A DNA stretch of 27,206 nucleotides, from IMG/VR virus record IMGVR_UViG_3300022198_004556, positions 1 through 27,206 of that record; one strand, written 5' to 3'. Source of the DNA: a virus. Of this stretch, positions 6,512 to 27,206 are shown piece by piece; within the stretch, counting starts at the first letter, position 1, and each line of letters starts with the position of its first letter. The translations under genes and the position numbers were made by a program. Below the pieces are notes generated by a model. It was given only the letters and a program-made list of their open reading frames with translations. It was not told the origin of the DNA and did not search any database.

Positions 6512-6544
6512 GACATAATCGCTTTTTTGGTTGTCGAGAAATTA

Positions 6545-9500
6545 ATGTCATTACGTCCTCTTAAACATTTTGGTGCAGGCGCTTTTAAAGAGCTTCTTAC
6601 TTCTGAAGAAGACTACTTGGCTTATCAGGCTGGTTATCATCTTGGGCAGATGACAACCGATGATTTGTCTGCACTCTCAATCAACGATCAAGGTACCCTT
6701 GTCGGTATCTATGAGGACACTTTCTATACTTCTGGCATTGGTTCAATTCCTGGCGAGACCATCGCAAGAACATTCGAAGTAAACCATCTTTCTGATATCG
6801 AAAGTTCGATTCATACAACGACTTTCACTGAAGGCTATATTCCTCTGCCTTCGACAGTCTATGTTGGCGATACACTTCAAATTACCATTGCTGGCTCTGC
6901 CGCTAGCTCTGGTGCAGGCTTTGAAGAAATAGAATATCAGATTGGTCTTACGGGTTCTGCTCAGTATAGCATCACAAGCGTTACCTCGACTCCTACTCCT
7001 ACGAACACAACTGGTCTGCAAGCCACGTGGGAAGATTATCAAAATGGCTCGTTGTCTGGTTCTTATCAGACAGTGTTTTCTATTCAGGTAACAAACACGG
7101 GTATTCTTAACTTTACCGTCAACGCTACTTCTACTGATCTTCAAAACGCTACGCCTAGCGCCTTTGATAACATTCAGTTCAACTCTGTACGCGTCGAGCC
7201 TCAGCAAAAGCCAAACACTGCTGGTGCAATCTACGAACTATACCAAAACGATGCAAACGTTTCTTCGCTTCAGACTTCGCCTCTAAAGAGAAATCCTTTC
7301 TACTGGAATCGGGCCGCAAACCCTCCAGGGCTGAAAGAAATGAGCGACGCTGAAATTGATATCGTTTGTGAAAGACTTCTTAAAAAGATTTTTGCAAACG
7401 ATCTTCCTGGAACGTTTAGACTGTCGTCAGCATCTCCTGGTCCGGATTGGTCAGAGTTTCTCCAAGACGTTTTTGTTGACACACGTGGTGACGGAACGCG
7501 TCTCGGCTATTCTATCTGGATCAAAGTTCAAGGCATCAAGCCTACTCGCGTAAATCCTCTTTCTCCTCTTAGAGTCAATAATGAGTTTGGTGGTATTCGT
7601 GAGCTAAGCGAGCCAGAAATGCAGTTCACTTTCGGCGAAAGAATGAAGAAAGTGATCATGGATACTGGTATCGGTACGTATGAACTACGTGCTTCTGCTG
7701 ATGGTCCTCCTACAGCACCAGGTACGTGGGAAGCAAGAGGTAGTGCAGTTGACACCATTCTTACCTACGAAGAAGAAAAGACCTATATTGCCACAGACAG
7801 CTATGAGTTAAACTATCTCACAGATTACGAAGCTACGTACACGGGTGATTACTCCGGCGACTATGTACCCACTTATGAAAGTGATTACATTGGTGATTAT
7901 GTGCCCGACTATGCTGGTGATTACAGCGGCGACTACGAAGGTACGTATTCTGGCACGTATAGTGGTGACTATACGCAGAACTATCTGGGCGATTATCTCA
8001 CAGAATACGTTCAGAATTACGAAGGTGAATTCACAGGCGATTATGTCCCGAACTACGAGGGTGTGGACATTCTTGAAGCCTATACAAGCGATTACGAAGC
8101 GGCTGACGCTGAAGAGCCTTACGTTGTTCCTTACGACGAAGCCGGCTATACTGGTAACTATATCAGCGATTACACTGGTGACTTCACAGAAGTTTATTCT
8201 GGCAACTTCACTGATACCTACATTTCTGACGTATACACTGGTAATTTCCTAGTTGATTACACTGGTGATTACGAGAGTGGTTACACTGGTAACTTCCTTG
8301 AGAACTATGTTGATGACCAATACACTGGTAACTTCTTAGAAGATTACATCGGTGACTTCCTTGAGCAATACACCGGTGACTTCTTGCAGAATTACGTTGA
8401 TAATTCTTATATCGGCGAATTCACTGCTATCTACACTGGTGATTTTATTGAAACATATTCTGGTGATTTTCTTCAGAACTATGTTGATGATCAATACACT
8501 GGTAACTACACTGACGAATACACTGGCGATTTTCTTGTAACATACAGCGGTGACTTCTTACAGAATTACGTTGACGACCAATACACTGGTAACTTCACTG
8601 AAGTTTATACTGGTGATTTCCTTGAGCAATACACTGGCAATTTTACTTCAGAATATGCTCAAGACGTTTATATTGGTAATTACGTTAGCGATTACACTGG
8701 TGACTTTTTAACACAATACACAGGAAACTTCTTAGAGAACTATGTACAAGCGCAGTACATTGGCAATTACTCAGAAGTTTATTCTGGTGATTTTATTGAA
8801 ACATATTCTGGTGACTTTACTCAGAACTATGTTGATGATCAATACACTGGTAACTTCCTTGATAATTACACTGGCGATTACGTTTCAGACTATACAGGTG
8901 ACTTCACTCAAAACTATGTTGATGCTCAATACACTGGTAACTTCACCGTAATTTACACCGGTGATTTTCTTGCGCAGTATACCGGGGACTTTGTTTCTGA
9001 GTATGCTCAAGAAACTTACATTGGCAACTATGTTAGTGACTACACTGGCGATTTCCTCACGAATTATACAGGCAATTTCCTTGAGAACTATGTTGACGAC
9101 CAATACACTGGTAACTTCTTAGAAATTTATTCTGGTGATTTTCTAACCACGTATTCTGGTGATTTTCTTCAGAACTATGTGCAGGCGCTTTATACCGGTA
9201 ACTTCCTCCAGAATTACACCGGAGATTACGTTGCAAATTATTCTGGTGATTTTCTTCAGAACTATGTACAAGCACAGTACACTGGTAACTTTATATCTAG
9301 TTACACAGGAGATTTTACTGCGCTTTACACTGGTGACTACGAATCTCTGTACGTTCAAACAAACTACACCGGTAACTATGTCAGCGATTACACTGGCGAC
9401 TTCTTATCACAGTACACCGGCGACTTTTTAGAGAATTACGTTGATGATCAATACACTGGCAACTTTACAGAAAATTATGTCGATGATACTTACACTGGTA

Positions 9501-12500
9501 ACTTCATAGTTAATTACACTGGTGATTACGAGTCAAGTTATGCAACCACATATGCAGTTTTGTATGTGCAAGATCAGTACACAGGCGATTACGCTTCTGA
9601 TTACACCGGTGATTTTGTCGTAACGTATTCTGGTGATTTTACAGAAAATTATGTCGATGATACTTACACTGGTAACTTCATAGTTAATTACACTGGTGAC
9701 TACGTTTCTTTATACGCTACAACTTATGCTGTCAACTACGTTCAGGCTCAATATACTGGTGATTACGCTTCTGATTACACAGGTGATTTTGTTGTAACTT
9801 ACGTAGGTGACTTTACAGAAAATTATGTCGATGATACTTACACTGGTAATTTCCTTCAGAATTATACTGGTGATTTTATCGTATCATATAGCGGTGACTT
9901 TACTCAAAATTACGTTCAGGCTCAGTACACTGGTAATTACATTTCTGTGTACACCGGGGATTTCTTAACAACTTATACTGGTGACTTTACTCAAAATTAC
10001 GTTGATAATTCTTACACCGGTAACTTCTTGCAGACATACACCGGTGACTTTATTGTTTCATACAGTGGAGACTTCTTACAGAATTACGTACAAGCACAGT
10101 ACACCGGTAACTACATTTCTGCATACACGGGCGATTACGTCGAGACTTACACTGGTGATTTTACAACAAACTACATTCAAACGACCTATGCAGGTAACTT
10201 CTTAGAGACGTATATCGGTGACTTTATCGCCAGCTATACAACAGTGTATAACGTAACATATGCGCAAGCAAACTATACCGGTAACTATATTTCGGATTAC
10301 AGTGGCGACTTTACTGAAGCGTACACCGGTAACTTTACTGTAAACTACGTACAGATTGTTTACGGTGGTGATTTCTTACAAACATATACTGGCGATTTTG
10401 TAAATCAGTATACTGGTAATTTCTTAGCTACTTATGCGCAAGCTCAGTATACTGGTAACTACATTTCTGTTTACACCGGCGATTTTTTAGCAACTTACAC
10501 TGGTGACTATGAAAGCATCTATGAGCAGTTGACATACACTGGTAATTATCTCAGCGATTACACTGGCGACTTCATTGTAAATTATGTTGGTAACTATCAG
10601 TCTGTTTATGCGCAAGCACAATATACGGGTGACTTCTTAGCTACGTACTCTGGTGATTTTATCGCCACATTCCAAGGGCAGTACGAAGGTAACTTTACTG
10701 CTCAGTATGAAGGCAATTTCACACAAAACTATACTGGTAACTTCATTCAAGGGTTTGAAGGGCAATACGAAGGTAACTTCACAGCGTCTTACACTGGCGA
10801 TTTCTTGCAAGACTATATCGTCAACGTGTATACTGGTGACTTCCTTGCGTCTTATACTGGTGATTTTTTACAGACATTCCAAGGGCAGTATGTAGGTAAC
10901 TTCTTAACGACCTACACAGGTAACTTCACAGCTACGTATTCTGGCGACTTCCTAGCTACGTTCCAAGGGCAGTATATTTCTGACTATGCGTCTAACTATA
11001 CTGGAACGTTTCTTAACCTGTATATACAAACAACGTATAGTGGCGATTTCTTGGCTACGTACGTTGGTGACTTCTTAACGACCTATACAGGTAACTACGT
11101 AAGTCTTTACGTTCAAGCAGATTATACTGGTAACTTTGCGGCAACATACTCGGGCGATTTCCTTGCTTCTTATCAAGGTAACTTCTTGACAACATACACC
11201 CAAGCAGATTATACTGGTAACTTTACCGCTGATTATGTGCGCGACACATACACTGGTAACTTTGTTGTTACTTACAGCGGTGACTTCCTTGCATCGTACA
11301 CTGGTGATTTTGTCACCAACTATGCACAGAATACGTACACCGGGGACTTTTTAGCTTCTTATACTGGTGATTTTAACCTCGCGTACGTTGGTAATTATCA
11401 ATCAGTTTATGCGCAAGCGAACTACACTGGTAACTTCCTTGCTACGTACGTGCAAGCAGATTATACTGGTAACTTTGTCGCCACTTATGCTGGTGACTTC
11501 CTTGCTACGTTCCAGGGTCAGTATGTAGGTGACTTCATTCAAGGCTACGTTGGATCGTTTACCGCAAACTATACCGGTGACTTCTTAGGTACTTTCGAAG
11601 GGCAATACGTAGGCGACTTCTTAGCGAACTATGATGGTGACTTCATCGCAAACTACTCTGGTGATTTTCTAGCTACATTCCAGGGGCAGTACACCGGTGA
11701 TTTCAACGCCAGCTATGTAGGTAATTTTAACGCAACTTATACTGGCGACTTCTTAGCTACGTTCCAAGGGCAATACGTCGGCGACTTTGTATCAACTTAT
11801 ACTGGTGACTTCTTGGCTACTGTTCAAGAGGGTTATACAGGTTCGTACTTAGGTGTGTATGAAGGAGCATATGTTGGAGCGGCTACGTACGTAGGCAATT
11901 ACGTAGGTCCTGGAGCATGGACAGCATGGCAGTATTCACTTAACGTTTATCATTGGGTAAGATCAACCTCGTCAAACTCGTTCTCTATTCGTTGGAATAG
12001 CGTTACCATCACAGTTCAGTTTGGTAATCCCAACCTTACGCAATTCTCAATTGGTGGTTATGATTATCAGCGTGGTGCGTTTAGAACCGGTGGACTTGGT
12101 AACAGTTTCTATGAAGTTCGAAGAAGATTAACTTCATCAACTTATCTTGGAAGCTACGCCGCTACCGGAACATACTTGGGCGGAATTACTGAAAGCATTC
12201 AGCAAGGTTACACTGGTAGTTACGTAGGTAATTTTTTCCAAGTGTATCTAGGGAACTTCCTTGCTACCTTCGTTAGTGCTGACTATACTGGTAACTTCCT
12301 TGCGTCTTATACAAGTTCGTTTGCGGCAACCTATACTTCTACATTTACTGCTACTTATATACAAGCAGATTACACTGGTAACTTTATTGCCAACTATGCA
12401 GGCAACTACGTATCTAGATACACAGGTAACTTCCTTTCTACTTACGTTCAAGCTTCTTACACAGGTAACTTCCTTGCGACCTATGTAGGTAACTACGATG

Positions 12501-15500
12501 GTAGCTATGCAGGCAACTTCTTGCAGACATTCGTTCGCGCAGATTACACTGGTAACTATGTGTCGGACTATGTCGGTGACTTCGTGGCTGTGTTCCAAGG
12601 GCAGTACGTTGGTGACTTCTTGGCGACCTTTGAAGGGCAGTATATTGGCGATTTCCTTCAAAGCTACACCTCTGCATTTGTGGCAAGCTATACAGGTAAC
12701 TTCTTAGCTACCTTTGAAGGGCAGTATCTAGGTAACTTCCTTGCGGCTTACACAGGCAACTATATTTCGAACTATGCAGGCGACTTCTTAGCATCGTATA
12801 CTGGAAACTACATTGGTGACTTCTTGGCGACGTTCCAAGGGCAGTATGTTGGTGACTTCCTTACTTCGTATACAGGTAACTACATTTCGAACTATGTGTC
12901 TGACTTCTTGGCGACGTTCCAGGGGCAGTATGTTTCTGACTTCCTTGCACAATATACAGGTAACTTCCTTACTTCGTACACTGGAAACTTCTTGTCGAAC
13001 TTTGAAGGTCAGTATACAGGTAACTTCGAAACAACTTATACTGGTAACTATGATTCGCTGTATGTTCAAGCCGATTATACTGGTAACTTCTTACAGCAAT
13101 ATACTGGCGACTTCTTAGCCAGCTATACGGGCGACTTTACAGTAGTGTACGCTCAAGCAGATTACACTGGTAACTATCAGTCAGTTTACACTGGTAACTT
13201 TGCTGTTGCGTACACAGGAAACTATCTCGGTAACTTCTTGCAGACCTACACAGGTGACTATGTTAGTCTGTATGCTGATCAAGTCTACGGTGGTGACTTC
13301 TTGAATGTCTACACTGGTGACTTCTTGAATCTGTACACCGGTGATTACATTTCGACCTATGCGCAAGCAGATTACTCAGGTAACTACATTTCAGATTACG
13401 TCGGTAACTTCTTATCTACCTTCGAAGGTCAATACGTTGGTGATTTCTTGGAGCAGTACAGCGGTAACTTTACTGCTGTTTACACTGGTGACTTCCTTGA
13501 ATCGTTTGCAGGGCAGTACACGGGCAACTTCACACAATCTTACACTGGTAACTTTGTTCAGCCATATTCTGGAGATTTCCTTGCGACATTTGAAGGTCAG
13601 TACGTCGGCGACTTCGTTCTGAATTATGAAGGCAACTTCTTAGCGCAATACACTGGTAACTTCGTCGCAAACTTCGAAGGTCAGTATACAGGCGACTTCT
13701 TGGAAATTTACACTGGTAACTTTATCGAGAATTATGCTGGTGACTTTGTACAGATTTTCCAAGGGCAATACGTAGGTACTTACATTACTGTGTACGTAGG
13801 AAACTTCCTTGAGCAATACACTGGCGACTTTGTGTCAAACTTTGAAGGGCAATACACTGGTAACTTCCTTGCACAGTACACTGGTAACTATGTTTCAAAC
13901 TATTCTGGTGACTTCACTCAAGTATTTGAAGGTCAGTACACTGGTAACTTTATTGTTGAGTACACGGGCAACTTCACTGTTCCTTACACTGGCGATTTCC
14001 TTGCTTCATTCGAAGGTCAGTATACTGGTAACTATCTCAGCGACTACACTGGTAATTTTGTTGTAAGTTACTCTGGCGATTTCACTCAAGTATTCGAAGG
14101 GCAGTACACAGGCAACTTTGTTGTCGCATACACTGGCAACTTTGTTGAAACGTATGTCGGTGATTTCTTAGCCTCATTCGAAGGTCAGTACACTGGCAAT
14201 TTCTTGCAGAATTACACTGGTAACTTCCTTACCACTTACACTGGTGAATTCTTACAGACATTTGAAGGGCAATACACCGGCGACTACGCTACAGGATACA
14301 CTGGTAACTACATTGAAAATTACGTTGGCGATTTCCTTGCTTCATTCGAAGGTCAGTATACTGGTAACTATCTCAGCGACTACACTGGTAACTTCCTTAC
14401 AACATACACTGGCGAATTCTTGCAGACATTTGAAGGGCAGTATACTGGTGACTACGCTACAGGATATACTGGCAACTTCCTTGAGACATACACTGGCGAC
14501 TTCCTTGACACGTTCGAAGGGCAGTATACTGGTGACTTCTTGCAAAACTTTGAAGGTCAATACACCGGGAACTTCCTCGATACTTTCACAGGCAATTTCC
14601 TTACAACGTACGCTGGTGATTTCCTTGCGAGCTTCGAAGGTCAATACATTGGTAACTTCACTCAAACTTATCAAGGCAACTTTACCGTTGTTTACAGTGG
14701 TGACTTCCTTTCTACCTTCGAAGGTCAGTACACTGGCAACTTCTTAGAGATTTACACTGGTAATTACACTGAAACTTACGTTGGCGACTTTGTAACAAAC
14801 TTCGAAGGGCAGTACACTGGCAACTTCTTGCAAAATTACACTGGTAACTTCATTGAGAATTACACTGGCGACTTCCTTCAAAACTTCGAAGGTCAGTACA
14901 CCGGCGACTTCTTAGACACTTATACTGGTAACTTCCTTGAAACTTATTCGGGTGATTTCGAACAAGGATTTATCGGGCTGTACACTGGTGATTTCCAAGA
15001 AACTTATACTGGTAATTACACTGACGAATACACTGGTGACTTCACTCAGAACTTTGAAGGGCAATATACTGGTAACTTCCTTGAAATTTACACAGGCAAT
15101 TATATTGAAAATTACGTTGGCGACTTCACCGAAGTTTTTGAAGGTCAATATACTGGTAACTTCTTAGAAAACTATTCTGGCAACTTCATTGCTGAGTACA
15201 CCGGTGATTTCATTCAAAACTTCGAAGGTCAGTACACAGGCGATTTCTTAGAGACTTACGAAGGCAACTTCCTTGAAACTTACTCTGGTGATTTTGAGCA
15301 AGGGTTTATCGGGCTATACACCGGCGACTTCTTAGACACTTATACTGGTAACTACACTGACGAATACACTGGCGATTTCACGCAAGTATTTGAAGGGCAA
15401 TATACCGGTAACTTCATTGAGAACTATACCGGCAACTTCATTCAGCCTTATACTGGCGACTTCACTGAAGTCTTTGAAGGTCAGTATACTGGCAATTTCC

Positions 15501-16258
15501 TTGAGAACTACTCTGGTAACTTCACAGAAGAATATACAGGCGATTTTGCTCAAGCGTTCGAAGGTCAATACACGGGCAATTTCTTAGAGACCTACGAAGG
15601 CAATTTCCTTGAGTCTTATACTGGTGATTTCCTTGACAACTTCGAAGGTCAGTACACAGGTGACTTCTTAGAAGAGTACGTTGGTAACTTCTTAGAGACT
15701 TACACCGGTGACTTTACTGAAACGTTCATCGGCGCTTACACTGGTGACTACGAGTCTGATTACGAAGGCAACTTCCTCGAGACGTACGCAGGCGATTTTC
15801 TAGAAGAATATATACAGACATATTCTGGCGATTATGTCGGTAACTACACGCCTACATTCTCAGATACATATGAAGGTAACTACACACCAGATTATGAAGG
15901 TGATGCTTATACAGGTGATTACACTTCAGACTATATCGAATCGCAGTACGAAACAAATTATGAAGTTGATTACGAAGAAAGTACGTATCTTTCTGATTAT
16001 GAGACTGATTATGAAGGTACCGTTGATGTTGAGAACTACGTTTCTGGATTCCAAGGGGCTGCGGCTGAAGAAACGTATACCGGGGACTTCCAAGGACCTG
16101 CTGTCATTGAGCAGTACAGCGTTCCTTATGACGGCATTAACTATGAAACAAATTATAATGTTGTCGTGGACGTTAACACCTCTTACTTGGATGAGGCTAA
16201 ACTGACTTCAACGCCGATTATTATTGAAACATACACACTTTATGTTCGCGTTGCATAA
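6545..16258 (+). CDS. Giant octapeptide-repeat virion/fibre protein (3,237 aa)
   Basis: I chose ATG 6545; an in-frame TTG at 6527 is possible but has no ribosome binding site and would disturb the promoter leader. The ribosome site here is weak (GAG at 6536-6538). Residues 1-415 are a non-repeat head containing two related modules (LKEMSDAEI near 265, IRELSEPEM near 350) that resemble N-termini of structural proteins in T4-like cyanophages. Residues about 417-1760 and 1888-3190 are tandem Y-x-G-[DN]-[FY]-x3 octets in units of three plus a linker. Residues 1788-1887 are a Trp/Arg-containing inserted domain. The tail (3190-3237) is acidic and then hydrophobic. There is no Lys from 413 to 3218, and no Cys or Met that I can see after the N-terminal head. 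No catalytic motif is seen. Probably a long, acidic fibre or beta-solenoid on the tail; localisation is inferred from its place between baseplate and fibre genes. MORN-like similarity is superficial. Confidence 0.85.
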   Translation: MSLRPLKHFGAGAFKELLTSEEDYLAYQAGYHLGQMTTDDLSALSINDQGTLVGIYEDTFYTSGIGSIPGETIARTFEVNHLSDIESSIHTTTFTEGYIPLPSTVYVGDTLQITIAGSAASSGAGFEEIEYQIGLTGSAQYSITSVTSTPTPTNTTGLQATWEDYQNGSLSGSYQTVFSIQVTNTGILNFTVNATSTDLQNATPSAFDNIQFNSVRVEPQQKPNTAGAIYELYQNDANVSSLQTSPLKRNPFYWNRAANPPGLKEMSDAEIDIVCERLLKKIFANDLPGTFRLSSASPGPDWSEFLQDVFVDTRGDGTRLGYSIWIKVQGIKPTRVNPLSPLRVNNEFGGIRELSEPEMQFTFGERMKKVIMDTGIGTYELRASADGPPTAPGTWEARGSAVDTILTYEEEKTYIATDSYELNYLTDYEATYTGDYSGDYVPTYESDYIGDYVPDYAGDYSGDYEGTYSGTYSGDYTQNYLGDYLTEYVQNYEGEFTGDYVPNYEGVDILEAYTSDYEAADAEEPYVVPYDEAGYTGNYISDYTGDFTEVYSGNFTDTYISDVYTGNFLVDYTGDYESGYTGNFLENYVDDQYTGNFLEDYIGDFLEQYTGDFLQNYVDNSYIGEFTAIYTGDFIETYSGDFLQNYVDDQYTGNYTDEYTGDFLVTYSGDFLQNYVDDQYTGNFTEVYTGDFLEQYTGNFTSEYAQDVYIGNYVSDYTGDFLTQYTGNFLENYVQAQYIGNYSEVYSGDFIETYSGDFTQNYVDDQYTGNFLDNYTGDYVSDYTGDFTQNYVDAQYTGNFTVIYTGDFLAQYTGDFVSEYAQETYIGNYVSDYTGDFLTNYTGNFLENYVDDQYTGNFLEIYSGDFLTTYSGDFLQNYVQALYTGNFLQNYTGDYVANYSGDFLQNYVQAQYTGNFISSYTGDFTALYTGDYESLYVQTNYTGNYVSDYTGDFLSQYTGDFLENYVDDQYTGNFTENYVDDTYTGNFIVNYTGDYESSYATTYAVLYVQDQYTGDYASDYTGDFVVTYSGDFTENYVDDTYTGNFIVNYTGDYVSLYATTYAVNYVQAQYTGDYASDYTGDFVVTYVGDFTENYVDDTYTGNFLQNYTGDFIVSYSGDFTQNYVQAQYTGNYISVYTGDFLTTYTGDFTQNYVDNSYTGNFLQTYTGDFIVSYSGDFLQNYVQAQYTGNYISAYTGDYVETYTGDFTTNYIQTTYAGNFLETYIGDFIASYTTVYNVTYAQANYTGNYISDYSGDFTEAYTGNFTVNYVQIVYGGDFLQTYTGDFVNQYTGNFLATYAQAQYTGNYISVYTGDFLATYTGDYESIYEQLTYTGNYLSDYTGDFIVNYVGNYQSVYAQAQYTGDFLATYSGDFIATFQGQYEGNFTAQYEGNFTQNYTGNFIQGFEGQYEGNFTASYTGDFLQDYIVNVYTGDFLASYTGDFLQTFQGQYVGNFLTTYTGNFTATYSGDFLATFQGQYISDYASNYTGTFLNLYIQTTYSGDFLATYVGDFLTTYTGNYVSLYVQADYTGNFAATYSGDFLASYQGNFLTTYTQADYTGNFTADYVRDTYTGNFVVTYSGDFLASYTGDFVTNYAQNTYTGDFLASYTGDFNLAYVGNYQSVYAQANYTGNFLATYVQADYTGNFVATYAGDFLATFQGQYVGDFIQGYVGSFTANYTGDFLGTFEGQYVGDFLANYDGDFIANYSGDFLATFQGQYTGDFNASYVGNFNATYTGDFLATFQGQYVGDFVSTYTGDFLATVQEGYTGSYLGVYEGAYVGAATYVGNYVGPGAWTAWQYSLNVYHWVRSTSSNSFSIRWNSVTITVQFGNPNLTQFSIGGYDYQRGAFRTGGLGNSFYEVRRRLTSSTYLGSYAATGTYLGGITESIQQGYTGSYVGNFFQVYLGNFLATFVSADYTGNFLASYTSSFAATYTSTFTATYIQADYTGNFIANYAGNYVSRYTGNFLSTYVQASYTGNFLATYVGNYDGSYAGNFLQTFVRADYTGNYVSDYVGDFVAVFQGQYVGDFLATFEGQYIGDFLQSYTSAFVASYTGNFLATFEGQYLGNFLAAYTGNYISNYAGDFLASYTGNYIGDFLATFQGQYVGDFLTSYTGNYISNYVSDFLATFQGQYVSDFLAQYTGNFLTSYTGNFLSNFEGQYTGNFETTYTGNYDSLYVQADYTGNFLQQYTGDFLASYTGDFTVVYAQADYTGNYQSVYTGNFAVAYTGNYLGNFLQTYTGDYVSLYADQVYGGDFLNVYTGDFLNLYTGDYISTYAQADYSGNYISDYVGNFLSTFEGQYVGDFLEQYSGNFTAVYTGDFLESFAGQYTGNFTQSYTGNFVQPYSGDFLATFEGQYVGDFVLNYEGNFLAQYTGNFVANFEGQYTGDFLEIYTGNFIENYAGDFVQIFQGQYVGTYITVYVGNFLEQYTGDFVSNFEGQYTGNFLAQYTGNYVSNYSGDFTQVFEGQYTGNFIVEYTGNFTVPYTGDFLASFEGQYTGNYLSDYTGNFVVSYSGDFTQVFEGQYTGNFVVAYTGNFVETYVGDFLASFEGQYTGNFLQNYTGNFLTTYTGEFLQTFEGQYTGDYATGYTGNYIENYVGDFLASFEGQYTGNYLSDYTGNFLTTYTGEFLQTFEGQYTGDYATGYTGNFLETYTGDFLDTFEGQYTGDFLQNFEGQYTGNFLDTFTGNFLTTYAGDFLASFEGQYIGNFTQTYQGNFTVVYSGDFLSTFEGQYTGNFLEIYTGNYTETYVGDFVTNFEGQYTGNFLQNYTGNFIENYTGDFLQNFEGQYTGDFLDTYTGNFLETYSGDFEQGFIGLYTGDFQETYTGNYTDEYTGDFTQNFEGQYTGNFLEIYTGNYIENYVGDFTEVFEGQYTGNFLENYSGNFIAEYTGDFIQNFEGQYTGDFLETYEGNFLETYSGDFEQGFIGLYTGDFLDTYTGNYTDEYTGDFTQVFEGQYTGNFIENYTGNFIQPYTGDFTEVFEGQYTGNFLENYSGNFTEEYTGDFAQAFEGQYTGNFLETYEGNFLESYTGDFLDNFEGQYTGDFLEEYVGNFLETYTGDFTETFIGAYTGDYESDYEGNFLETYAGDFLEEYIQTYSGDYVGNYTPTFSDTYEGNYTPDYEGDAYTGDYTSDYIESQYETNYEVDYEESTYLSDYETDYEGTVDVENYVSGFQGAAAEETYTGDFQGPAVIEQYSVPYDGINYETNYNVVVDVNTSYLDEAKLTSTPIIIETYTLYVRVA
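7795..11826 (+). repeat. Repeat block 1: octapeptide array, mainly 29-residue units
   Basis: This coding repeat opens with a Tyr-rich edge (YTGDY, YSGDY, YVPTY; 7795-8160) and then becomes regular: three octets Y-x-G-[DN]-[FY]-x3 followed by a five-residue linker of the YVDDQ or YVQAQ type. Linker tyrosines fall at 8306, 8393, 8480 and so on to 9437, which is 13 consecutive intervals of exactly 87 bases. At 9437-9476 one unit is shortened to 13 residues, losing exactly two octets. From about 10660 the linker changes to FQGQ and spacing becomes looser. Synonymous codons vary freely (tac/tat, ggt/ggc, gac/gat), so the protein pattern is better kept than the DNA. Confidence 0.9.
9464..9811 (+). 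repeat. Tandem 174-base duplication inside repeat block 1
   Basis: Copies 9464-9637 and 9638-9811 encode two 58-residue stretches (two 29-residue units each) that differ at only a few residues, and the opening of a third copy starts at 9812. About 60 bases around FTENYVDDT and the following octets are almost identical in DNA as well, unlike the diverged surrounding units. Both copies carry the same aberrant octet (YATTYAV) that lacks the Gly-Asp core. This looks like a recent duplication of two units in register. Confidence 0.85.
11906..12205 (+). other. Non-repeat inserted domain (residues 1788-1887 of the repeat protein)
   Basis: About 100 residues without the octapeptide pattern interrupt the array. 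This is the only part between the N-terminal head and the C-terminus with tryptophan (GAWTAWQ, YHWVR, IRWN), and it holds most of the arginines of the region, including RRR near its end. It is Ser/Thr/Asn rich and predicted beta-type by eye. On both sides lie similar transition sequences (GYTGSYLG before, GYTGSYVG after), as if a small globular module were presented from a loop of the fibre. I do not recognise a family. A receptor-binding or trimerisation knob is a guess from its place. Confidence 0.7.
12206..16130 (+). repeat. Repeat block 2: octapeptide array, mainly 28-residue units
   Basis: After the inserted domain the array resumes, at first loosely (YVQAD and FQGQ linkers), then as strict 28-residue units: three octets plus a four-residue FEGQ linker. 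From the linker at 13421 to that at 15641 there are 27 intervals; 26 are 28 residues and one, near 14512-14558, is 12 residues (one octet plus linker), which together account exactly for the 2,220 bases. Two linkers are FIGL and one is FAGQ without change of spacing. In these units the second octet nearly always has Asn (YxGN[FY]) and the third nearly always Asp (YxGDF). The end (15800-16130) turns Tyr-rich and acidic, like the start of block 1. Confidence 0.9.
14885..15560 (+). repeat. 336-base segmental duplication within block 2
   Basis: The rare linker FIGL, preceded by YSGDFEQG and followed within two octets by YTGNYTDE, occurs with its Phe codon at 14969 and again at 15305. The distance is 336 bases, exactly four 28-residue units, and similarity between the copies continues for several units on either side. 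DNA differs mostly at third positions, so this duplication is older than the one at 9464-9811. Confidence 0.8.
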
Positions 16259-16273
16259 ACTATGGAGTAATTT

Positions 16274-16753
16274 ATGAAGTATGAATATCTAGATAATGCA
16301 TATTGGGAAGCTGATGATAGGTCCATCGTCAAGTGCATTAGAATCACAACACTTGACGAGGGTCCTGCAAATAAAAAGAAAAAAGATGTAATGCAGTTTC
16401 ACAAGATCCGCCCTGACGGATCCGAGTGCCCCCATTACAAAGAGGTCGTTTCTAAGGTCGGTATTCCTAAAATCGATCAAAACACTGCTGAGCGTAAAGA
16501 AAGAAAAGAGCGCGAAGCAAAAGAAAAACGTGCCATGCACGAACAGCAAAAGAAAACTGCTGAGCTTGAGCAACTTTTCAATCTAAAACTCCAAGCCTTT
16601 GAAATTGACGAGATTAAAAACTCCGGAGATCGTGCGCTTCGCTCAAAACTTCGGCGAGCTAAAAACGTTGTTGAAATGAATGCAGTCGCATCTATTCTGA
16701 TTGCAAAAGAATTGGGAATGTTTGGAGAAAAAGAGAATGAGTCAACCGTCTAA
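16274..16753 (+). CDS. Charged helical protein (159 aa), function unknown
   Basis: The start ATG at 16274 has a good GGAG at 16264-16267. The N-terminal 70 residues look like a small mixed domain (KYEYLDNAYWEADDRS, then a Lys-run and MQFHKIRPDGSECP). Residues 75-115 are very rich in Lys, Glu and Arg (AERKERKEREAKEKR) and are probably one long helix or coiled coil. The C-terminal 50 residues are a helical segment ending near LIAKELGMFGEKE. There is no signal peptide, membrane segment or catalytic motif. It overlaps the next gene by 17 bases, so the two are probably co-translated. It may be a virion or assembly protein linked to the neighbouring giant gene; I do not recognise a named family. 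Confidence 0.75.
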   Translation: MKYEYLDNAYWEADDRSIVKCIRITTLDEGPANKKKKDVMQFHKIRPDGSECPHYKEVVSKVGIPKIDQNTAERKERKEREAKEKRAMHEQQKKTAELEQLFNLKLQAFEIDEIKNSGDRALRSKLRRAKNVVEMNAVASILIAKELGMFGEKENESTV

Positions 16754-17471
16754 AGGATACGTAATTGTTGCATCGCGAAGAAGTTTTTTCTATGTGTCCG
16801 CACTCAATTTGATGGAATCTATTCGCGATTTTTATCCTGATGCCAACATCTGTCTAGTCTGTGAAGAAAAATTTCTTGATGATCGAGGAAGAAAACTCGC
16901 AAACGAAATAATTTTTTGCAACGATCACAAGCGAGCCAAGCTTTGGGGAATGGCAAAGGCGCCGTGGGATATCACGTTTTACATTGATGCAGATACTGAA
17001 TGCGAACATGAGGATATCGAACATGTCTTTGATGAACTTGGTGACTACGATGTTCTATTCACTGGCTTGCCCGAAGAGCGTTCATATTGCTACGCTGAAC
17101 TGAAATTCCCTGGTGGGCAATTTGAACTGTGCGGTGCTGTTTGTTTGTACGACATGCGTAATCCACTAGTACGTGAGTTTATGGATGACTGGTACGATCT
17201 TACCGTGCGTCAGTACGCAGGAACGTGGTGGCCTTTAAAAGAAGATGGTAGTGAAGACACTGATACGTATCCTGCAACACTCAAGCGTTGGGATCAATTC
17301 TCTCTGTGGTGGCTTGTTAACAAAGAGCCAAAATACAAAGACTTGAAAGTAGGCATTTTCAAAGACGACGCGAGATGGAACTTTTTTTCGCGCTATAAAT
17401 ATCAGCACAACGAAAAGCCTGTGGTGATTCGCCACTATTCTGCTTCTGAAGCGAAGCACATGGAGTTTTAA
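16737..17471 (+). CDS. Putative GT-A-type glycosyltransferase (244 aa)
   Basis: I chose the ATG at 16737 because GGAG lies 9 bases upstream (16724-16727) and the protein then starts MSQPSKGYVIVASRRSFF, a beta strand as expected for a nucleotide-sugar-binding fold; the frame is open a little further upstream within the preceding gene. Residues 79-86 (ITFYIDAD) place an Asp-Ala-Asp (D84-x-D86) motif at the end of a hydrophobic strand, as in GT-A enzymes that bind a divalent metal and UDP- or GDP-sugar. Downstream, GGQFELCGAVCLYD resembles the acceptor-side region of the fold. The donor and acceptor cannot be read from the sequence. Because it sits among fibre genes and abuts an oxygenase-like gene, it may decorate a virion protein or a host glycan; this is inference. 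Confidence 0.65.
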   Translation: MSQPSKGYVIVASRRSFFYVSALNLMESIRDFYPDANICLVCEEKFLDDRGRKLANEIIFCNDHKRAKLWGMAKAPWDITFYIDADTECEHEDIEHVFDELGDYDVLFTGLPEERSYCYAELKFPGGQFELCGAVCLYDMRNPLVREFMDDWYDLTVRQYAGTWWPLKEDGSEDTDTYPATLKRWDQFSLWWLVNKEPKYKDLKVGIFKDDARWNFFSRYKYQHNEKPVVIRHYSASEAKHMEF

Positions 17472-18146
17472 ATGAGAGATATTCCTTTAAATGATTTTGC
17501 ACTTGACATTTTAAATGAATCATTATGGTTTGTCAAAGACGAAAACTATAAAGCCGTTGTTTGTAATAAGCAAGATAAGCACAACAAGAAAGATGCTGAC
17601 TACTACACCGGTGAAGAATATTTCAAGCGAATCAAAGCCATGGGGCAAGAGCATAATGGATTTCCAGAAATAGTAGTTGCTCATTCTTTTGGCATCGGGC
17701 AACTGCATTTTGCGAAAGAAAGAACTGTCACTGAAAAGATTCCACAGGTGTCTTCACAGCAAGAGGCTTTTCTGAGCAAGATTCAAACGACTTTTAATTT
17801 AAAAAGAAATGCACTGTTTAGCATTTATCCGCCAGGGGGTTATATTTCTTGGCATAACAATGCAAACGCTTCCGCTTTTAATTTTATTTTCACGTGGAGC
17901 GAAACGGGAGACGGGTATTGGCAGCATTGGGATAATGCTAAAAAAGAAATGGTGACAATACCCGATGTAAAAGGATGGCAGTGTAAAGCAGGATATTTCG
18001 GAGCGTATGAAGATCCTGCAGAAAAATTAGTCTATCACACAGCAAGAACCAATGACTCTTTACGAATGACTGTTGCATTCGTGCTTGATCGATCTGAAAT
18101 GTCTTCTGGCATTCAAGATTGGATTATTGAAGACATTCACGCCTAA
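17472..18146 (+). CDS. 2-oxoglutarate/Fe(II)-dependent oxygenase-like protein (224 aa)
   Basis: The ATG follows the stop of the glycosyltransferase gene with no gap, and GGAG at 17462-17465 serves as ribosome site. The core looks like a double-stranded beta-helix: SIYPPGGYISWHNNANA (His128), FIFTWSETGDGYW, then GWQCKAGYFGAY and YHTARTNDSLRMTVAF, with His189 as likely distal metal ligand and Arg198 in an R-x-T motif as in 2-oxoglutarate binding. The usual H-x-D metal motif is H-N-N here (Asn130 in place of Asp), so the metal site is altered or the real acidic ligand lies elsewhere. Such oxygenases hydroxylate amino acids, lipids or nucleic-acid bases; the substrate is unknown. A protein-hydroxylation step before glycosylation by the upstream gene is an attractive inference. 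Confidence 0.6.
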   Translation: MRDIPLNDFALDILNESLWFVKDENYKAVVCNKQDKHNKKDADYYTGEEYFKRIKAMGQEHNGFPEIVVAHSFGIGQLHFAKERTVTEKIPQVSSQQEAFLSKIQTTFNLKRNALFSIYPPGGYISWHNNANASAFNFIFTWSETGDGYWQHWDNAKKEMVTIPDVKGWQCKAGYFGAYEDPAEKLVYHTARTNDSLRMTVAFVLDRSEMSSGIQDWIIEDIHA

Positions 18147-24524: not shown

Positions 24525-25280
24525 ATGGCATCACCAGCATCAAGACAAGAACTGATCGATTTTTGTTTGCGCAGACTCGGCGAGCCTGTGCTTGAGATTA
24601 ACGTTGATGTTGATCAAATCGAAGACAAGGTTGACGATGCGATTCAGAAGTATCAAGAGTTTCATAGTGATGCTACGCTTCGCACTTATCTGAAGTATCA
24701 GGTGACTGCCGCAGACGTTGCAAATAAGTATGTTCCTATTTCATCTAATATTATTTTTGTTTCGAAAGTGTTTCCGTTTTCGACAACGTTCGGATCATCT
24801 GGTAACCTATTCGATATTCGTTACCAGATGTTTTTGAATAACATGGGCGACTTTATCAACTTTGCAGGTGATCTTGCTTATCTGTATCAGATGGAACAGT
24901 ATCTGAGCATGATTGACATGCAACTTCATGGTCATCCTACAGTCAAGTTTTCGCGTCGACAAAATCGTCTGTATATCTACGGTGACTTTGAAGATCAAGA
25001 CCTAAAAGAAGGCGACTATCTTGTTGCTGAAGTTTATCAGACGATTGATCCCGACACGCACACAAGCATCTATAATGATATGTTCATTAAAGACTACACC
25101 ACTGCGCTGATTAAACAGCAATGGGGTGCGAATCTTAGTAAGTTTGAAGGAATGCAATTACCCGGTGGTGTTACGCTAAACGGTAGACAAATCTTTGAAG
25201 ATGCAACTGCCGATATTGAAAGATTAGAAGAGAAACTGAGAAACGAGCAAGAGCTTCCCGTCGATTTCTTTGTAGGTTAA
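24525..25280 (+). CDS. 13: Neck protein gp13 (head completion)
   Basis: The start ATG at 24525 is five bases after the preceding stop. The sequence follows T4 gp13 and its marine relatives through its whole length: ELIDFCLRRLGEPVLEINVD, then VDDAIQKYQEFH, DIRYQMFLN, RRQNRLYIYGDF, TALIKQQWGANLSKFEG and PGGVTLNGRQIF. gp13 binds the portal and, with gp14, closes the DNA-filled head and offers the docking face for the tail. Length is near 250 residues, slightly short of the T4 protein (309). It is followed one base later by gene 14 as in T4. Confidence 0.92.
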   Translation: MASPASRQELIDFCLRRLGEPVLEINVDVDQIEDKVDDAIQKYQEFHSDATLRTYLKYQVTAADVANKYVPISSNIIFVSKVFPFSTTFGSSGNLFDIRYQMFLNNMGDFINFAGDLAYLYQMEQYLSMIDMQLHGHPTVKFSRRQNRLYIYGDFEDQDLKEGDYLVAEVYQTIDPDTHTSIYNDMFIKDYTTALIKQQWGANLSKFEGMQLPGGVTLNGRQIFEDATADIERLEEKLRNEQELPVDFFVG

Positions 25281-25281
25281 A

Positions 25282-26172
25282 ATGGCAACAAATAGGTATT
25301 TTACACAAGGAACGGCATCTGAGCAAAGACTTTATGAAGATATTATTATTGAGTCGCTTAAAATCTATGGTCAAGATGTTTACTACATTCCTCGCGAGAT
25401 AGTCAAAAGAGATTCCATCTTTGACGACGATGCTGTCTCGCGGTTTAGTAATGCCTATCGTATCGAAATGTATATCGAAAACGTCGAAGGTTTTGATGGT
25501 GAGGGGGATTTATTTTCGAAGTTTGGCGTTGAACTTCGTGACGCGGCTACATTCATTGTAGCCAGACGCCGTTGGAATAGCGCTGTACAATATTACGAAA
25601 ATACTGGTGTCAACCAATTTTATCGACCTCGTGAAGGCGATTTAATCTACTTAACGTTATCGAAGTCTTTCTTTGAAATTACAAAAGTCGAGACCGAAAC
25701 ACCTTTCTATCAACTAAAAGACTTACCTGTTTTTAGAATTCGCGCAGAACTCTTTGAGTACAATGACGAAGACTTTGACACAGGTCTTGAAATCGATACT
25801 ATCGAAGCCAATCATGCATATCAGAGATTGCTCGTGTTTGATTTGGCTCAAATGACGGGTAAGTACGAAGTTGGGGATACCTTGACGCAAACAAATCCAA
25901 ACGGTTTCACTATTACTGGTGACGTTGTTAAGATTGATGCCTCGGTATCTTCTCAATATAAAGTATGGGTTGCTCACGCGGGCGCTGACGATGGCGAAGT
26001 TCACACCTTTAGCACATTGTACAGAATAGAAAATGAGAATGGAATCGGTGGTAAACCTACGTCTGTGAGTGAAGAAGATTTACAAGAAGGGAATCAAAAT
26101 ACAGCTTTTGACACAGAGGCTTCAAATATTCTTGATTTCTCTGAATCGAATCCCTTCGGAGATCCAGTATAA
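25282..26172 (+). CDS. 14: Neck protein gp14 (head completion)
   Basis: The ATG at 25282 is one base after the gene 13 stop. EQRLYEDIIIESLKIYGQDV and YYIPREIVKRDSIFDDD (residues 14-50) are strongly like T4 gp14, as is the partner order with gp13 and gp15. gp14 forms the lower ring of the neck. The 296-residue length is close to the T4 protein (256) with a little extra at the C-terminus, which is acidic and low in complexity (EEDLQEGNQNTAFDTEASN). Its stop overlaps the next start (TAATG). Confidence 0.92.
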   Translation: MATNRYFTQGTASEQRLYEDIIIESLKIYGQDVYYIPREIVKRDSIFDDDAVSRFSNAYRIEMYIENVEGFDGEGDLFSKFGVELRDAATFIVARRRWNSAVQYYENTGVNQFYRPREGDLIYLTLSKSFFEITKVETETPFYQLKDLPVFRIRAELFEYNDEDFDTGLEIDTIEANHAYQRLLVFDLAQMTGKYEVGDTLTQTNPNGFTITGDVVKIDASVSSQYKVWVAHAGADDGEVHTFSTLYRIENENGIGGKPTSVSEEDLQEGNQNTAFDTEASNILDFSESNPFGDPV

Positions 26173-27206
26173 TGTTCGGCACATATTTCTATCATCAAAG
26201 AATACGCAAAGCAGTGGCTGTCTTTGGTTCTCTGTTTAACAACATTAACGTTGTGAGAACAAATGCGGCAGGAGACGTAATCAGTCAAGTGAAGGTGCCT
26301 TTGTCTTATGCACCTCGCCGTGATTTCTTGGCTAGAATAGACGCCATGCAGAACGGTGAAGAAGCCGAACGTCAGATTGCTGTTAAGCTACCAAGAATGT
26401 CTTTTGAAATTCTTTCGATGAGCTATGATCCTACGAGACAATTACCAAAGATGAACAAGTGTGTGACTTTTCCTGATAACTTTACAGGGAAAGCACAAGA
26501 AGTTTACACACCAGTTCCATACACTATTGGATTTCAGCTAAGCATATACGCTAAGTCGCAAGACGACGCTTTGCAAATTGTTGAGCAGATTCTGCCATAC
26601 TTTACGCCACAGTATACGGTAACTGTTAAGCCTCTTTCTGATTTCGACACGAAAGAAGATACACCCATTTCGTTAACGGGGCTTACTTTCAGTGACGACT
26701 TCGAAGGTCTTTTAGAAGCGCGAAGAACGATTGTTTACACACTTGACTTTGAAATGAAGTTAAGTCTATATAAAAACGTTTCGTCTTCGGCTTCTATTAT
26801 TACACAAGCTGACGTTAATTTTTACGAGACAGGAAAGGATGGTATTCTTTCTACGGTTTCTGTGAATACATTCTCACAAGAAGGATTGAGCGGAACGATT
26901 TCAGAAGATGGTGGTACTATAACAAATAGTAACTTCAAAATCAAGTACGCACCTCGCGAAATTTCGTCTCTTGAAGTATCGACTAATCCAACTTATGGTA
27001 CTGCTTCAGTAACTTTGACTGAGAATACGACAACTGAAACTGGTAGAATTGTCGCAACAGGTTCTTGGTCATATACGCCTGACGAAGACTGGTATGGAAC
27101 TGACACGTTTGTTGTGCAAGCAAATATCACTGGTGGCGGTAGTATAAGAACTACGATTACAGTTAACGTATCACCCTCAGAAAAAGATGCTATTGACGAT
27201 ACATTT
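26172..27206 (+). CDS. 15: Tail-completion/sheath-terminator protein gp15 with Ig-like C-terminal extension (partial)
   Basis: The ATG at 26172 shares its A with the gene 14 stop. The frame stays open to the end of the window (345 residues, no stop). Residues 1-230 follow T4 gp15: MFGTYFYHQ, ARIDAMQNGEEAERQIAVKL, and QIVEQILPYFTPQY (nearly identical to T4). gp15 forms a hexameric ring ending the tail tube and sheath and docks to the neck. T4 gp15 is 272 residues, but here the chain goes on with a cadherin/VCBS-type Ig domain (about 250-335): YGTASVTLT, SWSYTPDEDWYGTDTF, then TTITVNVSP. KDAIDDTF at the very end looks like the opening of a second such domain. The total length is unknown. Confidence 0.85.
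   Translation, partial: MFGTYFYHQRIRKAVAVFGSLFNNINVVRTNAAGDVISQVKVPLSYAPRRDFLARIDAMQNGEEAERQIAVKLPRMSFEILSMSYDPTRQLPKMNKCVTFPDNFTGKAQEVYTPVPYTIGFQLSIYAKSQDDALQIVEQILPYFTPQYTVTVKPLSDFDTKEDTPISLTGLTFSDDFEGLLEARRTIVYTLDFEMKLSLYKNVSSSASIITQADVNFYETGKDGILSTVSVNTFSQEGLSGTISEDGGTITNSNFKIKYAPREISSLEVSTNPTYGTASVTLTENTTTETGRIVATGSWSYTPDEDWYGTDTFVVQANITGGGSIRTTITVNVSPSEKDAIDDTF

Follow-up and report, generated by a model that had tools for sequence, protein, structure and literature searches.

gp15 tail terminators of uncultured phages extended by an immunoglobulin-like arm with exchangeable tips

The gp15 locus

The window, by which the whole stretch of DNA analysed here is meant, is an entire viral record of 27206 bases. 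Three genes lie at its end in the order gp13-gp14-gp15, as in T4. The first (24525-25280, + strand) was annotated as the head-tail adaptor gp13 on the basis of a match to the PHROG family Ad2 (6.7e-42) and an alignment with T4 gp13, and the second (25282-26172, + strand) as the head closure protein gp14, with matches to PF11649 (E 6.9e-32) and to the PHROG family head closure Hc2 (4.7e-77). The last ORF (26172-27206, + strand) starts with an ATG at 26172 and runs for 345 amino acids without a stop codon until the contig breaks off at 27206, with the end of the gp15 gene lying beyond the window.

The tail terminator core of this protein comprises residues 1-222 (26172-26837, + strand). Residues 5-222 match the Pfam family T4-gp15_tss (PF16724) with an E value of 4e-69 and a score of 233 bits, against a curated cut-off of 25, and the core also matches the PHROG tail sheath stabilizer family (6.8e-75) and, in a PDB search, T4 gp15 (E 8e-25). 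By sequence and gene order, the gene belongs to the gp15 family, gp15 being a conserved protein of morphogenesis in T4-like phages.

The core is followed by a putative linker (residues 223-232; 26838-26867, + strand), delimited by alignment and by a low-confidence stretch at 201-232 in the model of the complete relative L002 (vide infra), and by a first Ig/cadherin-like domain, Ig1, at about residues 233-337 (26868-27182, + strand; 233-336 in the same model). Big_9 (PF17963) matches residues 278-332 with an E value of 5.3e-5 and 24.5 bits, above its curated cut-off of 23.6, in a protein that is cut by the contig end; Cadherin_5 also appears, under its cut-off (E 0.011). The last eight residues, KDAIDDTF (27183-27206, + strand), align with the start of a second Ig domain in complete relatives, Ig2, which occupies 340-432 in the L002 model. 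To judge from these family matches, the Ig domains of the arm are ordinary members of Big_9. Pfam was also run on 13 further window proteins and gave no Ig match in any of them.

The original prediction had placed gp15 and Ig/cadherin-type domains in one frame, and the Pfam matches bear this out. It had the Ig part begin at 26900; an Ig domain does follow gp15, but it begins slightly earlier, at about residue 233 (26868). Its reading of AIDDTF as the beginning of a further domain agrees with the alignment to complete relatives. The two-Ig arm, the tip domains and the exchange of the distal part described below had been missed because the contig ends.

Elsewhere in the window, a 3243-amino-acid ORF (6527-16258, + strand) consists almost wholly of short repeats of the YTGDF, YTGNF or YSGDFL type, and its sole Pfam match lies below the cut-off. 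The adjoining region (16701-18146, + strand) encodes a protein with a weak glycosyltransferase match (Pfam, 0.027) and a second protein that by eye resembles a 2-oxoglutarate oxygenase, with no Pfam or PHROG match. These two proteins possibly modify the repeats of the giant ORF.

Continuity of the fusion

An IMG/VR scan found 593 relatives, of which the best 80 were taken as loci. Among these 80, 71 gp15 ORFs are complete, with a stop codon, and the other nine are cut by contig ends. The reading frame continues to 416 amino acids or more in 64 of the 71, so that the same fusion, which the original prediction had proposed to look for elsewhere, is common in related uncultured phages. The window's nearest relatives have gp15 proteins of 427-460 amino acids, and Big_9 scores range from 28.2 to 66.5 bits in ten complete relatives. 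The remaining seven complete ORFs are short, and one of them (L079) has an apparent frame break near residue 225.

At the window's junction there are an in-frame GTG at residue 231 and a TTG at residue 239, the latter directly abutted by AGGA. Neither is a conserved internal start, as the GTG is present in one and the TTG in two of the 18 sequences inspected, window included. In comparisons with seven relatives, changes in the extension are mostly synonymous, and dN/dS is about 0.03-0.06 for the core and about 0.10-0.21 for the extension where computable, these values being approximate with synonymous sites near saturation. On these alignments the extension is translated and constrained, but less so than the core.

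A frameshift, a chimeric contig or a separate Ig gene at the junction would each give a false fusion, and the contig end that cuts the window gene and the frame break in L079 are what such a reading could draw on. The original prediction had named the first and the last of these as its own possible refutations. The frameshift is dismissed by the 64 continuous complete ORFs and the mostly synonymous change across the extension, and the separate gene by that same pattern of change and the lack of a conserved internal start. An artefact is therefore refuted for the family and retains next to no probability overall. Open frames in 64 of 71 relatives, low dN/dS and the missing internal start together indicate that the fusion is a real, translated and constrained part of the protein.

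Architectures among relatives

A wider survey of uncultured loci began with 278 gp15 ORFs, which after filtering gave 129 unique proteins, 117 of them complete. Of the complete proteins 59 are under 280 amino acids and 58 are 360 or longer, counts that come from similarity searches and do not represent natural frequency. The length surveys left out ORFs with a profile match starting after position 5 or without an upstream methionine, and the 117-protein survey also left out cultured-phage loci.

Five architectures of the long proteins can be distinguished. The bare two-Ig arm gives proteins of 416-460 amino acids, and a third domain after the two Ig domains gives 535 (L240-242). Proteins in which the two Ig domains are followed by DUF285 have 625-636 amino acids, those with the lectin-like Laminin_G_3 (LamG) have 644-653, and those with the same third domain as L240-242 and an FG-GAP propeller (FG-GAP_2) have 1056-1269. 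The two-Ig architecture is kept across strongly diverged proteins. Among the best 80 of 593 loci, 50 of the 64 complete armed proteins are tipless, and an adhesive tip is thus not essential.

A sister group has shorter gp15 proteins of about 260 amino acids with a D-Y-G-F motif near the end. Four unique proteins of this group carry a cupredoxin-like domain with a C-x-x-H-P-x-x-M stretch (L138:4476-5627, with a Copper-bind match of 4.7e-5, and also L135, L136 and L141), and from sequence and tree this fusion apparently arose independently of the Ig fusion. In the gp15 tree, armed and arm-less relatives coexist in one clade; the armed clade has an SH-aLRT of 90, below star level. One row with a core under 215 amino acids and duplicates were left out of this tree. 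The T4 sequence, truncated where its locus stops, sits on a very long branch, and the label 'none' for L079 is due solely to its frame break.

The genes 3' of gp15 are structural or fibre-like in the armed loci inspected; a small-terminase gene stands there in C48C1, and an ORF of similar size in the short group. In locus L074, an arm-less gp15 that belongs to the armed clade is followed, 89 bases on, by a free-standing DUF285 gene (L074:6794-7945; 383 amino acids, E 2.4e-63). Because of this arrangement, it is possible that the DUF285 tip came about by fusion of a neighboring gene. Derivation of tips from paralogues in the same phage was considered and rejected, DUF285 being found only at gp15 in two of ten records and LamG once each in two of eight.

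Exchange of the distal part

Closely related pairs differ at the end of the arm. L054 and L055 share 99.1% identity as far as Ig2 extends and 98.2% from the stop codon on, and only L054 has a DUF285 tip. L049 and L043 form a second pair with and without a tip, with flanks of 96% and 91%. Between L079 and L070 identity is 90.8% as far as Ig2 reaches, and beyond it DUF285 follows in one and a LamG tip in the other. Gain, loss and exchange of tips are thereby shown.

The exchange extends to Ig2. In a nucleotide comparison of L055 and L043, the core is 63% and Ig1 54% identical, whereas Ig2 is 98% identical, the high identity beginning at the Ig1/Ig2 boundary. The converse is seen in L044 and L240, where identity is 86% before that boundary and 92% after the gene, and the Ig2 in between has diverged (54%). 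Taken with the tip pairs, this pattern indicates that Ig1 travels with the core and that Ig2 and the tip move.

Such mobility could also be expected of a near-neutral, promiscuous Ig module spread by recombination and conferring general stickiness or nothing at all; Fraser and colleagues reportedly proposed a role of this kind for some phage Ig domains in 2006 (cited in PMC5259590). The coexistence of armed and arm-less relatives in one clade, the weaker constraint on the extension than on the core and the intact flanks where a tip has been lost are all consistent with passive display. It is nevertheless judged improbable, given that the extension is under purifying selection, that the two-Ig architecture has been retained through strong divergence, and that what is repeatedly gained is a binding-type domain and not random sequence.

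Predicted structure

An AlphaFold2 model was made of the relative L002 (432 amino acids, 82% identical to the window) from 32 aligned sequences. It consists of a gp15-like core, the linker at 201-232 with a pLDDT of about 30-40, and two beta-sandwich domains at about 233-336 and 340-432, mostly with a pLDDT of 80-96; the two-Ig fold and the linker are thus predicted features. The gp15 part is of modest confidence and the overall pTM is 0.51; in fold, the core resembles T4 gp15 (Z 15.5) as well as further tail terminators. A model of the propeller tip was poor (mean pLDDT 50, 4 sequences), and its beta-propeller matches were used only as agreement with the Pfam FG-GAP assignment.

The best structure match of L002 Ig2 in the PDB is the decorating domain of the collar protein of Agrobacterium phage Milano (Z 12.3, rmsd 1.6 A over 86 residues, 26% identity), followed by the phage 7-7-1 collar (Z 11.7) and then by bacterial adhesin domains of FrhA and MpAFP. 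A profile of 21 Ig2 domains searched against the PDB likewise returned Milano gp13 first (E 1.5e-5), then an RTX protein (3.2e-4) and the 7-7-1 collar (8.1e-4), and a profile of 22 Ig1 domains also returned Milano gp13 first, weakly (E 0.0084). The Ig2 match spans residues 69-155 of the collar chain; the collar wall domain has no listed VIA-align match to the arm, a missing match being no proof of absence. Given the breadth of Big_9, the likeness to the collar may stem from membership of that family and not from a common function; what the matches show is a shared domain type. The collar-like decoration envisaged in the original prediction is nonetheless made more likely by it.

A proposed role for the arm

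T4 gp15 is described as a hexameric ring atop the sheath, capping sheath and tube (PMC3004832), and residues 203-245, in the last part of the protein, are reported to contact the C-terminal arm of gp14 (PMC12270204). As the Ig arm starts where these contacts are made in T4, it would emerge from the ring where gp14 and gp15 meet, in six copies. The gp15 core would remain a working tail terminator, with a C-terminus extended by a flexible linker and, as in the complete relatives, a two-Ig arm with or without a tip. If gp15 is a hexamer as in T4 and the arms point outward, six of them would radiate from the head-tail joint. Ig1 would form a stalk evolving with the core, and Ig2 and the tip a cassette exchanged between lineages in the manner of tail-fibre tips.

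The tip domains come from surface or binding families (Laminin_G_3, DUF285, FG-GAP_2, and cupredoxin-like in the sister group). With Ig domains of collar type bearing lectin-like, DUF285 or propeller tips, the arm most likely serves for weak and exchangeable adhesion to structures on the host surface, and it would probably keep the virion close to glycans or proteins there. The evidence suggests a surface-binding arm, sometimes tipped, in an unexpected place. A working terminator bearing a linker and a two-Ig arm, as a neck-borne, low-affinity adhesion device with exchangeable ends in six copies, is accordingly favoured, with slightly better than even confidence. A stronger form is put forward tentatively, and is thought rather doubtful: that the terminator is a second evolvable receptor-binding platform, on which the distal cassette determines what the virion adheres to, whatever the baseplate fibres bind.

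To our knowledge the neck, whiskers aside, has rarely been considered a site of host interaction. If the proposed role is correct, phages would evolve adhesion at the neck too, through a terminator with a modular arm and exchangeable tips, and the C-terminus of gp15 would be a natural point for fusing proteins to be displayed on contractile-tail particles. The near-identical phages with and without a tip make the role of collar decorations testable.

Comparison with known systems

The core aligns with T4 gp15 (PF16724; PDB 4HUD, 3J2M, 9MKB), residues 1-223 of the window protein corresponding to T4 residues 1-222, and has the same fold. T4 gp15 has 272 amino acids and, as the original prediction had held, no Ig part, in contrast to the window gp15 with its arm.

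The collar proteins Milano gp13 and 7-7-1 gp118 have a decorating domain that resembles Ig2 in fold and sequence and is situated on the neck. The collar is described, however, as a separate protein with a wall domain, forming four pentadecameric rings (PMC10491603, PMC12796354), whereas the domains described here are a C-terminal extension of the terminator. In the Milano report, the function of the collar is called unknown by the authors, who link it to particle robustness (PMC10491603). The whiskers of T4, made of fibritin (gpwac), are six-fold neck appendages, as the arm would be if exposed; fibritin is described as a coiled-coil trimer bound to gp13 (PMC12270204), and the arm is an Ig extension of gp15. 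Fibritin_C was found in none of seven related records, all of them fragments, with T4 as a positive control, and the arm does not appear to be fibritin.

The main rival to an adhesion arm is a structural or fibre-docking collar, in which the arms would bend back to gp14, gp13 or the sheath and stiffen the neck, or would hold the long tail fibres in the manner of T4 fibritin, with no host contact. The best fold match is to a collar protein linked by its authors to robustness of the particle, Fibritin_C is found in T4 but in none of the seven related fragments, and in an alignment with T4 gp13 the window gp13 lacks most of the insert reported to bind fibritin. That insert, however, is missing in all 14 non-T4 sequences compared, armed or arm-less, cultured cyanophages included. 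A brace should moreover co-evolve with its neighbors, yet Ig2 and the tips are exchanged between lineages and the tips come and go, and what is matched in Milano is the decorating domain and not the wall. Vibrio phage D485 has an annotated whisker gene together with a long gp15, so that arm and whiskers are not simple alternatives. A purely structural collar is on balance considered unlikely, and a specific replacement of the whiskers by the arm was not supported, the gp13 insert being missing with or without an arm and D485 having both whisker gene and long gp15.

Long gp15 proteins are also found in cultured phages. Those of the cyanophages Bellamy, S-SCSM1, S-SCSM2R and Sf-FS3 have 333-359 amino acids, with the extra stretch inserted before a terminal D-F-G-F-like motif, and that of D485 has 421, with extra residues near the C-terminus; Pfam found an Ig match in none of the five. 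The D485 protein (L344:2540-3805) has a long tryptophan-rich repeat extension without a Pfam match. A separate observation concerns gp14: that of Synechococcus phage Sf-FS3 (L231:689-2980; head closure) has 763 amino acids and a Laminin_G_3 match (E 2.9e-7), and those of P-SSM2 and Bellamy have 470-483 amino acids, as against 296 in the window. Decoration of the neck by insertion may therefore also affect gp14.

Five gp15 queries were compared with 50,697 cultured-phage records at a threshold of 80% query coverage. Four of them reached this coverage nowhere, and the fifth (L028) reached it in a single record, Sf-FS3, with Bellamy at 74% (tblastn). An occurrence of the same fusion in these cyanophages was rejected, as the gp15 proteins of Sf-FS3 and Bellamy have no Ig match and carry their extra stretch before the C-terminal motif. 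The Ig part of the window alone found no match in the cultured-phage comparison, no published report of a gp15-Ig fusion was found in the open-licence literature, and what is known of the distribution of armed gp15 comes solely from uncultured contigs. A viral structure library lists further long gp15 proteins, among them those of Vibrio phage V09 (434 amino acids) and Campylobacter phage CPt10 (456 amino acids). The same fusion may exist in a named phage, because a 532-amino-acid entry of that library aligns over the whole L002 model.

Ig-like domains occur on other phage virion proteins, T4 Hoc among them, and weak surface binding has been proposed for them. Those domains are on capsid, tube or fibre proteins, whereas the domains described here are on the tail terminator and bear exchangeable tips.
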